From: Mesoplasma coleopterae
Lineage (GTDB): Bacteria > Bacillota_I > Bacilli_A > Mycoplasmatales > Mycoplasmataceae
Assembly: GCF_002804245.1 (NCBI RefSeq)
Contig: NZ_CP024968.1
Span: forward strand, 186,001-250,000
DNA length: 64,000 nt
Direction of reading: 5' to 3'
Numbering within the stretch: the first letter of the stretch is position 1; each line of letters starts with the position of its first letter. The notes under the pieces were generated by a model, which made no database searches, was not told the DNA's origin, and was given only the letters and a program-made list of their open reading frames with translations. Positions 23,068 to 32,531 of the stretch are shown here, piece by piece. Position numbers and translations under genes: made by a program.

Positions 23068-23072
23068 TTGTG

Positions 23073-23099
23073 AAAGAATCCGTAAGGATTCTTTTTTTA
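23073..23099 (+). terminator. rRNA operon terminator
   Basis: AAAGAATCC-gtaa-GGATTCTTT plus a T run directly after 5S. It separates rRNA transcription from the lanthipeptide locus that begins 60 bases on. Confidence 0.9.
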
Positions 23100-23157
23100 T
23101 TTAATTATTGATTTATAAGAGTAATATCTTTCATAAATAGAAAGGAAGGCGAAATTC

Positions 23158-23262
23158 ATGACAATTAATGAAATTCTAGATTTACAAATAAATACAGAAA
23201 AAGAAACACCTGTTTTTGCGAGTGAGGCGATAATTCAAATAACAATTATTTGTAAAGCATAA
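23158..23262 (+). CDS. Putative class III lanthipeptide precursor peptide
   Basis: A 34-residue peptide starting MTINEILDLQINTEK. It is preceded by one of the strongest ribosome-binding sites in the window, AAAGGAAGG at 23141-23149. Residues 6-10 read ILDLQ, matching the (I/L)-x-x-L-Q amphipathic leader motif by which class III LanKC enzymes bind their substrates. The C-terminal part has Ser22, Thr29 and a single Cys32 near the end (TIICKA). This would allow a methyllanthionine ring Thr29-Cys32 and possibly a further Ser22 dehydration or labionin-like bridge, although the Ser-Thr spacing is longer than in labyrinthopeptins. A terminator hairpin follows at once, then the LanKC gene. The leader-core boundary is unknown, and the assignment is inferred from motif plus context. 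Confidence 0.85.
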   Translation: MTINEILDLQINTEKETPVFASEAIIQITIICKA

Positions 23263-23277
23263 AAATTTTTATTTCTT

Positions 23278-23309
23278 GACTAATGTTTTTAGGCATTAGT
23301 CTTTTTATT
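23278..23309 (+). terminator. Terminator/attenuator between precursor and synthetase genes
   Basis: GACTAATG (23278-23285) pairs perfectly with CATTAGTC (23294-23301) and is followed by TTTTTATT. It lies 15 bases after the precursor stop. Partial read-through would give much precursor and little enzyme, as is usual in RiPP clusters. Confidence 0.85.
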
Positions 23310-23327
23310 CATGAATTTAACTTAAAA

Positions 23328-25574
23328 ATGTATAGAAAAAAACGTGATTTAAATTATATTTATTATTTAAACCATAAAACTTTTAATAAAATACCGAAAT
23401 TAGGATGAAAGATACACTTATCAGCAAATTTAAAAAATTACAAAAAATTATTAAATATTACAAAAAAAATTTGTTTTAAATTTAATTTAAATTTTAAATA
23501 TCAAACAAGTTATAAAAAAATTATTGAAGATTCGCAAAAACATACAAATAAATTTTCAACAGGAAAATTTATAACTATTTATTGCTTAAATCAAAAGCAA
23601 TTTATAAATATTATAAATATTTTATATTCAAAAACAAAAGAAATAGAAGGCCCTTTCATTTTTTCTGATAGAAGATTTAAAGATTCAAAATGTATTTACT
23701 ACAGATATGGGATTTTAAAAGGTGAAAACTGTTATGTTTTCGGTGAAGAAAGATTAATAGAAATGAAAAAAAATCAATATTATTCTGAAAATCTAACAAA
23801 ACCTTTTTATTTAAACAAAAAAGATCCACTAGAAAGAGAGTACAAAAAATATAATTTTTACAAATTAAAAAAACTTAATAAGGAATATTTTATTAAAAAT
23901 ATCATTAAAGAAAATAATTCAGGTAATGTTTATATGGGTTATTTAGAAAATAAGAAAAAAATAATAATTAGAGAATTTAGACCAAATACACTTTTGGTGA
24001 AAAAAAATATAGATTCATTATATTTTGCTAAAAATCTTGAAAAAGTTCAATATAAATGTAATTTACTTAACAAAAGCATATCACCAAAATTAATTGATTC
24101 ATTTTATGAATGAGAAAATTATTATATTATAGAGGAGTTTATTGAAGGTATAAATTTAAATCAATGAGTGATGACCAATAACCCATTTATATGTAACCAA
24201 AATAACCCATCAAATAAGGAAATTAAAAATTATGTTAGTAAATCTCTTGAAATATTTCAAAAAATAGTCAATAAGATTAAAATACTAAAAGATAATAAAA
24301 TTATTCATGGAGATTTAAAATTAGATAATATAATGATAAAAAATGATGAACCAATATTAATTGATTTTGAATCATCAAATTTTTTGTATGATTTTAAGCC
24401 ATATTTGAGAAATTCAGAACATAACTATTTTTATAAAAAACAAAGCTGCGATGAAATAAGTTTGCTTTTTATTTTATTGGACTTATTTGCCCCTTTTTCT
24501 TTTTTACTTCCTATGCAAAAAGAGATAAAAATTAATGAAAGATTATCTTATGTATGTAATCTTTTTAATATTGATATTCAAATCTTTGAGAAACTTATAA
24601 ATAAATTAAATAAAAGAACATTAAAAATTACTGACTTTAATTTTTCGACTTTATTTTTATTAAAAAATAACAATAATATTCAAAAAAATAAAATAACACT
24701 AAAATATGAAACGAAAACAATGTGAACAAAAAAAACCAAGAAATTATTTTACCCTAAAAATGTATATAATATTCAATTAAATAATTATCAAACAAAATTT
24801 TGCAATTTATTTTTATTAAAAAATAATTTTTCAGAAAACACATTTAAAAGTAAATTTAATAATAAAATGCTTAAAGATTATAAAAAAGAAATAATGAAAA
24901 AAATAGATTTTCTATTATTTATTAAAGATTTTTCTTTTAAAAATGGATTATCTGGAATAGGTTTTTTTCTTTTAAAAATTTATAATAATGAAGATTTTCA
25001 ATTAAATAAAATTGTAGAAAAAATTTATTACAGCGCTATTGCTGAAATTGAAAATATTTCAAATTCTTTTAATTTAACTTTCGATTTGGGCATTTCAGGA
25101 ATTCTCTTTTTTATTTATCATTATGAAAAACAAAATAAATTAAAAAATAATTTTGATTTTTTAGAAATTATAAAAAAAATTGAAAATGAGTTAGTTAATA
25201 ATTTAAAAAATGGATGTTATGTTACCAAAAATATAGCATCTCCTTATTTTGGTAATGGCACATCAGGAATTCTCTATATTTTGTCACTTTTTAATAAAAA
25301 CAAAAAAAAGTTTTATTGTAATAAAATATTAGAAATTAATTTGCAGCTTTGCTCAAAAACAGATTTTTTATATGGATTACCAGGCATTTTATTTGTATTG
25401 TATAAATTAAGTGAAAGTCAAACATCCTTATTAAAAATAAACGAAATAAAAAAAATTTTAAATACTTTAAAAGACAAAAATGGTTTTTTTAGAGCACAAG
25501 TTGAAAATGATCATAGTAACTATTTTTTAAATACACTAATTGGTCCTTACGTTCTTGAAATTATTTTAAAATAA
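23328..25574 (+). CDS. Class III lanthipeptide synthetase (LanKC)
   Basis: A 748-residue trifunctional enzyme that would phosphorylate precursor Ser/Thr, eliminate phosphate and cyclise onto Cys. N-terminal lyase region: 'GWKIHLSA' (Lys28, His30), 'STGKFITIY' (Lys80) and 'GPFIFSDRRF' followed by YYRYG (Arg126), all hallmarks of LanKC/LanL. Kinase domain about 190-470: catalytic HGDLKLDN (Asp329, Asn334) and metal-binding DFE (Asp346). The expected 'K-E-x-R-P' ATP-Lys reads IIIREFRP, with Arg215 in place of Lys. LanC-like region from about 535: four Gly-containing helix repeats (NGLSGIGFFLL, DLGISGILFF, GNGTSGILYIL, YGLPGILFVL), but no WCYG or CHG zinc ligands, which points to class III rather than IV. 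It is somewhat short for the family. An in-frame ATG at 23283 lies inside the terminator hairpin and is unlikely. The gene is extremely AT-rich. Confidence 0.92.
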
Positions 25575-25645
25575 ATTTTTAATTGTTATTTTATATTAAA
25601 AAGAGTATGATTTCCTTAATATAGAAAAATAAAAGGGATGAATAT

Positions 25646-27235
25646 ATGAAAAATGTCTATGCAAAAAATAAAATGGGTATTCTATGGTTTTCTATTCTTG
25701 CTTTTATAGCTGCAGCAGCATTAGTATTTTCTGGATACGTTATTAGTTATTTAATAAATACAGCTGTTGATGTAGTCAATGGAGCATCAGAAAAAATGAA
25801 TTTGCTTTTTATAGAAATTGGTGTTTGTGCTTTATCTTTTGGAATATGCTTATTATTTTCATACTTGCAAACTCAGCAAAAAAATAAAATAATTAAAGAA
25901 TTTAATTTATATTTAAGAAATAAAGTCTCTAATAAAATTATAAATTTGGATTTAAAAGATTTGGATTCTAAAAATAAAGGAGATCTTATAAGTTGATTAA
26001 CAAACGATATAAATCAAATAGAAAGTAAAAATTTTGAAAATATGTTTTTATTTATTGAAACATTTTTAACAGCATTTTTAGCAATAATAGCAATATTTTT
26101 ATTAAATTGAATAACGGGATTAGTAACAATTTTATGTTTTATTATTTTATTAATTGTTCCTTCGCTTTTACAAAAATCCATGGTTAAAATAGTAAACAAA
26201 GTTTCGTTAAAACAAGAAGAATTTTCTTCAAAAGTTGAAGATGTAATTTCGGGATATAGAGAATTTTTATATAATGATAAAACAGAAATCTTTAGTGAAA
26301 TAATCAGTCAAAAGAGTTTTGAACTAGAAACTTATAAACAAAAAAATAAAAATATTGAAAATTTACAGATAACTGGAATTAATTCAATTGGTGCTATTTG
26401 TCAAATTGGTCTTGTTATAATGACTGTTATATTAGCTTCATATAAAATAGCACCAATAGGATTAGTTTTTGCTGTTCCTCAATTGGCTGGAAATTTTTTA
26501 GGTAATGCGCAAAGATCGCTAGGAGCTTTTTTTGGCTTATTAGGAAGCAAAGAATTGTTTAAAAAATTCATTTTTAAAAATACAGAACTTAAGATCAATG
26601 AAATTGAGCCTTTTAACTCAATTAAAATTAAAAACTTAAATTTAAGTATTAATGAAAATAATTTATATAATAGTTTAAATTTTGAAATTAAAAAGGGTAA
26701 GAAATATTTAATTTCAGGTAGAAGTGGTGTGGGTAAAAGCACACTTATGAAAATTTTATTTGGCCTAATATCTGAATATGATGGTGAAATTCTTTGAAAT
26801 AATGATTTAAATTTATTAAAAATTAGTAGCAAACAAATTTGAAATCAAATTTATTATGTTCAACAGGAAACAATTATTTTTGATGCAAGTTTTAAAGAAA
26901 ATATTACTTTATTCGATTCGTCAATTAGTGATAAAGAAATTTTTAATATTGTTAAACTAGTTAATTTACAAGAGTTAGTATCAAAAAACAACAATATTTT
27001 ATCATTTAAATGCAAAGATATTTCTAAAGGTGAAGCTCAAAGAATCGCAATAGGTAGAGCACTGTTATCAAATAAAAAAGTTATTTATTTAGATGAACCT
27101 ACAGCTAGTTTAGATAAAAGTAATACTGAATTAATAGAGAATTTAATTCTAAAAAACTCTGATTTAACAGTTTTATTTATTTCACATACTTCTGATATTC
27201 AAAATCAAATGTTTGACAAGGTTATAAAGTTGTAA
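25646..27235 (+). CDS. ABC exporter (TMD-NBD fusion), probable lanthipeptide transporter
   Basis: A 529-residue ABCB-type half-transporter. Residues about 1-300 hold the membrane domain with roughly six helices. The ATPase follows: Walker A GRSGVGKST (Lys364), degenerate signature ISKGE at 459-463 instead of LSGGQ, Walker B VIYLDEPT, and switch His in FISHTSD. It starts 71 bases after the LanKC stop with an AAAGGGATG ribosome-binding site, so it is likely the export (and perhaps self-protection) gene of the locus. There is no N-terminal C39 peptidase domain, so the leader is not removed by this protein. Cargo assignment rests on context; a lipid or drug exporter is the main alternative. Confidence 0.88.
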
Positions 27236-27289
27236 TAGTGAAATGAAAGATCTTAAAAACAATTTTAAAAATACGAATTAAAAATGTAA

Positions 27290-28100
27290 CTGCAACACTT
27301 ATCAAAAAATAATCTGATAGAAATTTCAGTTTCTTTGATACAAAAAAGCAACTTGCGACTGATTAAAGCCCAAAAAAGTTAGGATCAATAATTATAAAAA
27401 CAATTTTAAATGAAAAACTATCTATAAAGTGTTAAAAAAGTTTGTTTCTTTTATAGCTAAAAAATTGAATAAAAATTGATCAACAATTTTCTGAGGAAAT
27501 AAAAGAAATAGACCGCAATTATTTAGAAACCAAAGATGTGCAGTTTTCTTATAGACATTAACAATATTTGTTCATTAAAATGAAAGAAACAAATTAAAAT
27601 AAAATCTAAAAGACTTACTTTTACCTAGATTTTGATGAAAAAAATTCAATAAATATGAGCATTGTCTATAAGAAATTTCAAAAATGAATTTAATTCCTAT
27701 TACTTATAAACCTAAAAATATTAATCAAAGAAAAAATATTAGTCATTTTAATTGATTTAGTTATTAGCTGTAATGTAGTTTGAAAATCATAATCATACTA
27801 TTTTAAAAGAGTTACCATAGAAGGGTTTGCAATTAAAATGGGAAATAAAACCATGAAGCATGCAAATAAAAAAATATGAATTAATTGCAAAAGAAAATTT
27901 AAATATTAAATCAATTACAAAAAACAATAGAAAAGAATTTAGTCTTCTGCATGAAGTTGTGCAAGAACTTAACCTATGACGTTATACATGTAGTACATAT
28001 ACCTCTTATGAAAAAGATACTGATGAAAACGTTAATAAATTAATCAGATGATATTTACATAAGAAAACTAATTTTAAAAGATCCTAATATAATTTAAATA
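27290..28100 (+). pseudogene. Decayed IS30-family transposase
   Basis: No intact frame, but protein fragments of an IS30-type DDE transposase can be read across stops and frameshifts. The N-terminal part has '..YLETKDVQFSYRH' near 27510-27560. The C-terminal part has 'KYELIAKENLNIKSITKNN' near 27870 and then the strongest signature, YEKDTDENVNKLIRWYLHKK at about 28008-28067. That last matches the family's 'WERGTNENxNGLIRQYxPK', containing the catalytic Glu region. The start shares 'tttgatacaaaa' with the relic at 45757. The element is clearly dead, and its inverted repeats could not be delimited. It fills most of the 1-kb gap after the exporter gene. Confidence 0.75.
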
Positions 28101-28272
28101 TTAAATGAAATAAATAAATTTTTTCATTTGCAAAATTCTGAACTACAAATCAGCTTATGAATTTTAGAAACATTCGCTTAGAAGCTCTGCACTTCCAATT
28201 TTAATATGTATTTGAAAATTATTTTAATGTTTATTTGATAAAATAATTAAATAGAAAAAGGAAAAGCATGAA

Positions 28273-30837: not shown

Positions 30838-31677
30838 ATGAAAAATAAAGTATGATTCGTAACAGGAGCTGGGCAAGGAATTGGTTTAGTAGTTACAAAA
30901 GAATTATTAAAAAAAGGACATAAAGTTATTGCGACAAGTCGTAATAAAGATAAAATTGAACAAGCTATTGGAGCTAACGAAAATTTATTAGCTTTATCAG
31001 TAGATATCAAAGATTTAAAAGCAGTTGAAAAAGCAGTTGCTTCAGGAGTAGAAAAATTTGGTGGGATTGACATCTTATTAAATAATGCTGGTTACTCACA
31101 AATGTGAACTTTTGAAGAAACAGATATGGAAGATGTAAAAGGAAACATTGAAACTAACTTAATTGGTACTTTAAATGTTACTCATGCAGTTTTACCAGTA
31201 ATGCGTAAACAAAAACATGGACACATTTACATAACTTCATCAGCTTGAGGATATGGTACTGTTCCTTACAACAGTGTTTATGCTGTAGTTAAATTTGGTT
31301 TAGATGGATTTGCAGAATCAATTAGCCATGAATTAAAAACTGTAGGAATTAGTATTTCAAGTATTAAACCTGGAGGAGTAAGAACAAACTTCTTAACTTC
31401 AGACTCTTTACAAACAGGAAAATCAACAATTGAAGAATATGCAGCAGGTAGAGATGAATGAGTTAACACAGTTAAATCATGAAACGGTTACCAAGACGGA
31501 AATCCACAAAAATATGCAGAATTTATTATTGGATTAACAGAAAATGAATCTGTACCACCAATGCATATATTTGCAGGAAGAGATGCTTATGAAATTGCTA
31601 AAAATAAAATTTCAGCAGTTCAAAAAGATATGGATGAATTAGAAGCACAAGCAACTAACTTACATTTTGAAAATTAA
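30838..31677 (+). CDS. Short-chain dehydrogenase/reductase (copy 1)
   Basis: A 279-residue classical SDR with the cofactor motif TGAGQGIG, 'DILLNNAGYS' (NNAG motif), the catalytic Ser in 'ITSSAWGYG' and YAVVK as the Tyr-x-x-x-Lys pair. The product is an NAD(P)H-dependent oxidoreductase; the substrate cannot be read from sequence. AAAGGAG is its ribosome-binding site. It is followed after 17 bases by a close paralogue, and both lie behind the MerR-type promoter, so a role in aldehyde or redox stress is a reasonable inference. Confidence 0.92.
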
Positions 31678-31694
31678 TTAAGGATATATAAAAA

Positions 31695-32531
31695 ATGAAA
31701 AACAATGTATGATTTATAACTGGAGCAAGTCAAGGATTTGGTCTAGGGATAACAAAAAAACTTTTAGAGCAAGGACATAAAGTTGCTGCTACAACTAGAA
31801 ATCCCCAAAAACTAATTGATGAACTAGGAGCAAATAAAAACTTACTAGCTTTAAAAGTAGATCTTTCAAACCAAAAAGAAATAGACGATGCTGTTGCAAA
31901 AACTGTATCAGAATTTGGATCAATTGACATCTTATTAAATAATGCTGGTTATGGTCAATTATGAACATTTGAAGAATCAACAGACAAACAAATTAGAGAA
32001 TGTTTTGAAGTAAATTTCTTTGGAACAATCAATGTAACTCGTTCAGTTTTACCAGTGATGCGTAAACAAAAGTATGGACATATATTTACAACTTCATCAA
32101 TTTGAGGATATGTAGGTGTTCCATATAATAGTACTTATGCAGCTGTTAAGTTTGCGACTGATGGTTGAACTGAATCAATCAGTCACGAATTAAAACCATT
32201 AGGTATAACTGTGTCATGTATAAAACCAGGTGGATTCAGAACAAATTTCTTAAGTTCAGGATCATTAATTACTGGAGAAGAAACAATTTCAGATTATAAA
32301 GAGGGAAGAGACACATGATTCAATAATCTAGCTTCTTTTGATAAACAACAGGATGGAGATCCTGAAAGATATTGTGACTTTGTAATTGATATTACTAAAG
32401 GTGACAAAGTCCCTCCAGTTCATATTTTTACAGGTAGAGATTCATATGAATACGCTGAAAATAAAATAAAACAAATAAAAGAAGATATGGAAATTCTTAA
32501 AACTGAAGCAACTGATTTACACGTAAGATAA
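31695..32531 (+). CDS. Short-chain dehydrogenase/reductase (copy 2)
   Basis: A 278-residue paralogue of the preceding gene along its full length. It has TGASQGFG for the cofactor, 'DILLNNAGYG', Ser in 'TTSSIWGYVG', and the catalytic YAAVK. Both end with the same 'VPP.HIF.GRD.YE' region and a C-terminal helix, so the pair arose by tandem duplication. Divergence between copies is substantial, which suggests different substrates rather than a recent dosage duplication. The ribosome-binding site is weak (TAAGGATAT). A strong terminator follows. Confidence 0.92.

Follow-up and report, generated by a model that had tools for sequence, protein, structure and literature searches.

A predicted class III lanthipeptide cassette in mycoplasmas

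Class III lanthipeptides are known, including from Firmicutes (PMC10604976, PMC7268733), and the closest described systems to the locus analyzed here are ThurKC/andalusicin of Bacillus thuringiensis (PDB 8SAM, 8SAP, 8SAO; PMC10604976) and the PneKC and SalKC class III synthetases (PDB 8W7A, 8WGO, 9UGQ). In the complex of ThurKC with its leader peptide, five ThurA1 residues (M-22, V-19, L-18, L-16, and Q-15) contact the enzyme, and mutagenesis has addressed a set of ThurKC residues (PMC10604976). Mollicutes are minimal, wall-less, and not known as makers of modified peptides. The nearest report is one sentence of 2014 mentioning VenL-like lyase domains in mollicutes (PMC4159009), and we found no description of a lanthipeptide system in Mollicutes, Mycoplasma, Mycoplasmopsis, Spiroplasma, Tenericutes, or Mesoplasma in the openly licensed papers searched, subscription journals not being covered.

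We analyzed a 64,000-nucleotide stretch of the Mesoplasma coleopterae chromosome (NZ_CP024968.1, positions 186,001 to 250,000; hereafter the window), which lies in an 800,407-base single-contig genome (G000) whose relatives are small-genome Mollicutes. Immediately behind the rRNA operon, the window holds a precursor gene, a hairpin, a LanKC gene, and an ABC exporter gene on one strand (Table 1), in agreement with the initial annotation, which described a class III lanthipeptide-like locus in this region. The precursor MTINEILDLQINTEKETPVFASEAIIQITIICKA is preceded by a ribosome-binding site (GAAAGGAAGG). The hairpin behind it (GACTAATG..CATTAGTC followed by T5) is one of two terminator-like sites in 5.2 kb, where 0.3 are expected, and folds at -10.9 kcal/mol with z = -4.9. 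The LanKC gene contains four in-frame TGA codons read as Trp (genetic code 4); the same frame is open from an ATG at 23283 inside the hairpin, which is a less likely start. Recurrence of the precursor, LanKC, and ABC combination across the order rules out a chance arrangement.

Table 1. Coordinates of the features discussed in the text; positions without a locus name refer to the window.
Position	Strand	Feature	Remarks
23068		End of 5S rRNA	
23072..23095	+	Terminator-like hairpin of the upstream rRNA operon	Left edge of the variable slot
23100-23157 and 25600-25645		Similar AT-rich stretches (GAGTAATATCTTTC.TAAATAGAAA-like)	Before the precursor and before the exporter
23158..23262	+	Precursor peptide gene, 34 aa	Leader motif I3-x-x-I6-L7-x-L9-Q10; predicted ring T29-I-I-C32; further Ser at 22
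23278..23301	+	T-tailed 10-bp hairpin between precursor and enzyme gene	Probable partial terminator (role inferred)
23328..25574	+	LanKC-type synthetase, 748 aa	Lyase about residues 18-140, kinase about 187-390, LanC-like about 534-748
25646..27235	+	ABC exporter, 529 aa	Membrane and ATPase domains fused, no peptidase domain; presumably a homodimer
27236-28272		AT-rich sequence of about 1 kb without a clear gene, between exporter and HAD gene	98.7% identical in G008; may hold remnants of a coding element
30838-32531		Two tandem, similar short-chain dehydrogenase genes directly behind a MerR-like regulator gene	Named from sequence by eye
L065:4970-5028		AT-rich stretch similar to those of the window	Before the lone exporter in G010
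L066:5484-6726		RiPP-like cassette of G012	Short ORF, ThiF/E1-like protein, and exporter
L066:5484-5558		24-codon ORF of G012 (MKELKLNKIIKTAKEDVVVNWYFV)	Own ribosome-binding site; read by eye
L106:6893-10733, L107:6887-8191, L113:6854-8194		LanKC loci of Lactobacillus and Vagococcus	Lyase and kinase only

Profile searches of the 748-residue protein identified RamC_N (4e-30), Pkinase (5e-9), and LANC_like (3.7e-13) in the order expected for LanKC. Among NCBIfam models the class III LanKC family (NF038151) is by far the best hit (6e-79), although its 266 bits are below the full-length cut-off of 575, which is a length and divergence threshold rather than a mechanistic feature. The nearest solved sequence is ThurKC (1e-41), followed by other class III synthetases. 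An AlphaFold2 model built on a ten-row alignment is good for the lyase and kinase and poor for the cyclase, so that the fold of the latter is not confirmed; Foldseek ranks ThurKC, PneKC, and SalKC on top. Lyase residues corresponding to ThurKC K65, H67, K94, K117, D152, and R163 are identical in every mycoplasma sequence that covers them. The kinase catalytic Asp and Asn and the DFE motif are present, but the beta3 lysine (K257 of ThurKC) is replaced by arginine (R215) in this genome and its sister genome G008, whereas it is lysine in all other sequences covering it; this change inactivates many kinases. No zinc-ligand motif (CHG, WC, or CG) is present in the protein, as expected of class III. 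The exporter matches ABC_tran (1e-25) and ABC_membrane (7e-21).

The precursor residues I3, I6, L7, L9, and Q10 have the spacing of the ThurA1 leader residues that contact ThurKC (phi-x-x-phi-L-x-L-Q). The pocket residues equivalent to W302, Y243, and E258 of ThurKC are kept in this enzyme but are often lost in relatives with other leaders. The LDLQ motif, emphasized in the initial annotation as a leader element needed for LanKC binding, is not general among the mycoplasma relatives, which share instead a T-x-x-C motif at the C terminus. The core contains S-x6-T-x2-C and thus lacks the Sx2Sx2-5C motif of the labionin type, which is common but not universal in class III clusters; some relatives have T-x2-T-x2-C or S-x2-T-x2-C.

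To assess the distribution of the enzyme, we searched 320 genomes of the order Mycoplasmatales. As the NF038151 model responds to ordinary kinases (277 of 320 genomes), counts were taken from RamC_N, which occurs in 25 of 320 genomes, in three families and nine genera. A search of named genome contigs with patterns suited to near-identical relatives only found nothing, and a 14-row alignment was too divergent to yield a pattern; however, an alignment restricted to the lyase identified Mycoplasma leonicaptivi, Mycoplasmopsis felis, and Mycoplasmoides fastidiosum. A scan of viral contigs with the LanKC of another genome (G233) was negative. The phylogenetic tree places the mycoplasma LanKCs on one side, but with weak support (84/69), and does not distinguish common descent from repeated transfer.

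Besides the sister genome, 21 further loci were examined. An ABC exporter is in the examined stretch of 20 of the 21, mostly as an adjacent pair, and no other family recurs in more than three loci; in particular, no recurrent protease, methyltransferase, or immunity gene was found. Small ORFs within 700 bases upstream of LanKC carry [hydrophobic]-T-x-x-C near the C terminus in 11 of 95 cases against 2 of 488 elsewhere in the same loci (Fisher p = 8e-8), and one of these two is itself a plausible precursor at the head of an operon. By a rule that ignores the motif (an ATG with a ribosome-binding site on the same strand upstream), 14 of the 16 loci with any such ORF show [ST]xxC. An alignment of 13 such peptides has two invariant columns, that Thr and that Cys; these peptides had been chosen partly by motif, so the enrichment test, not the invariance, is the statistical evidence. 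Examples of C termini are WITIICKITTEKCSK, KITIICKS, YTIFCESTFTFICKV, KITLICITWKCQEN, and QITIFCRIVNN. Three pairs of near relatives show purifying selection on LanKC (p = 0.008, 2e-8, and 1e-17). Nevertheless, several copies are split or truncated, often with the precursor still intact (loci L049 and L102 of genome G164, L053 and L105 of G283, L006 of G003, L052 of G097, and L054 of G152), and remnants are present in G084 and G196, suggesting ongoing decay in several lineages, so the trait is dispensable.

Within the genus, the stretch between 5S rRNA and a HAD-hydrolase gene is a variable slot. G008 has the same cassette, its precursor differing by one synonymous base and no amino acid; G010 has the exporter alone (65% identical protein), G011 a broken exporter, and G007 nothing. 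In G012 the orthologous exporter (68%) lies behind a 366-aa ThiF/E1-like protein (ThiF, 1e-40) and the 24-codon ORF, forming a different RiPP-like cassette; a relative of the ThiF protein (46% identical) is in G005. Between G000 and G008 the cassette is 99.2-99.7% identical while the HAD gene is 97.7%, and between G000 and G010 the HAD region is about 96% but the exporter only 73% identical at the DNA level. GC content is 17-19% over most of LanKC against about 30% further downstream. The cassettes therefore seem to move or be exchanged independently of the neighborhood, and the similar AT-rich stretches before precursor and exporter listed in Table 1 may mark the edges of a clean gain or loss of precursor and LanKC. 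The company of the exporter with two different kinds of enzyme beside a short peptide gene supports a role in exporting modified peptides.

The above analysis makes it likely that the locus is a minimal and exchangeable class III lanthipeptide cassette, although every chemical step, including the production of a bridged peptide proposed in the initial annotation, is inferred from homology to ThurKC. In this scheme, the hairpin would let only part of the transcripts run on into the enzyme gene, and the leader helix would dock between the lyase and kinase domains. The kinase would phosphorylate S22 and T29, the lyase would eliminate phosphate to give Dha/Dhb, and C32 would add to Dhb29 to close a four-residue methyllanthionine ring (T-I-I-C), helped by the metal-free LanC-like domain or spontaneously. 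The ABC homodimer would export the product, and a protease encoded elsewhere would remove the leader; no leader protease is evident in any locus examined. The product would be a short, very hydrophobic bridged peptide, most likely a bacteriocin. More tentatively, Mycoplasmatales may hold their own subgroup of class III systems (precursor, compact metal-free LanKC, and ABC exporter) whose shared product element is the T-x-x-C methyllanthionine ring, spread as exchangeable cassettes and serving as bacteriocins; wall-less producers would be insensitive to any product that targets the cell wall, which could explain why no immunity gene is seen.

Other interpretations appear less likely. An orphan kinase was rejected because of the lyase domain and the precursors. 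The enzyme could be a dehydratase without true cyclase, its C-terminal region being a remnant or only a scaffold, so that any ring forms spontaneously or not at all. The C-terminal third is indeed the least conserved and a poorly modeled part, and lyase-kinase-only LanKCs exist in Lactobacillus and Vagococcus. However, LANC_like still matches, G and P residues of the LanC repeats are conserved, and the constant Thr-Cys pair of the precursors speaks for a bridge, making this reading doubtful. Still less probable is a decaying remnant in this strain, with a kinase inactivated by the Lys to Arg change in an otherwise functional family. Broken copies elsewhere in the family and the restriction of R215 to G000 and G008 are consistent with it, but all frames are intact, LanKC shows fewer amino-acid changes than neutral (p = 0.008), the exporter dN/dS is 0.06, and the precursor protein is unchanged.

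It also seems unlikely, though possible, that the product is not antimicrobial but a signal or surface-active peptide like SapB, alternatives raised in the initial annotation. Class III includes SapB-type morphogens (PMC13380574), and no dedicated immunity gene was seen in the loci examined. On the other hand, patchy presence, fast divergence, and swapping at one site resemble bacteriocin loci, and Mollicutes have no aerial growth.

A cassette of about 4 kb, recurring in type over three families including Mycoplasmopsis and Mycoplasmoides species, would be among the smallest complete lanthipeptide systems, would give competing mycoplasmas a chemical weapon or signal, and offers a short single-ring substrate to study how a metal-free LanC domain closes a ring.

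As the enzyme domain was already mentioned in mollicutes, novelty lies in the system: the host lineage, the compact divergent synthetase, and the T-x-x-C precursor family, without the Sx2Sx3C motif in this case, seem new. ThurKC shares with the mycoplasma enzyme the lyase-kinase-LanC order, the six lyase residues, the DFE motif, and the absence of a zinc-ligand motif, and its leader has hydrophobic residues and LxLQ at the same spacing. It is, however, about 120 aa longer, retains the beta3 Lys, and is accompanied by a methyltransferase and by several near-identical precursors with many Ser/Thr and a labionin, whereas the mycoplasma precursor has one Thr-Cys pair. PneKC and SalKC, the next best structural and sequence matches, belong to streptococcal clusters with Sx2Sx3C precursors, and family III 3 of S. 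pneumoniae also encodes a prolyl oligopeptidase (PMC7268733), absent here. Class IV synthetases (LanL, e.g., VenL) have the lyase-kinase-LanC order as well, but their score is half that of class III (132 against 266 bits) and they keep zinc ligands, which led us to reject this assignment. Finally, the LanKCs of Lactobacillus and Vagococcus are related in lyase and kinase, and an ABC pair also lies downstream in L106; they have no LanC-like match, and their upstream ORFs of about 75 aa end in GALSGAHS-type sequences with Cys, possibly representing a cyclase-free lanthipeptide type.
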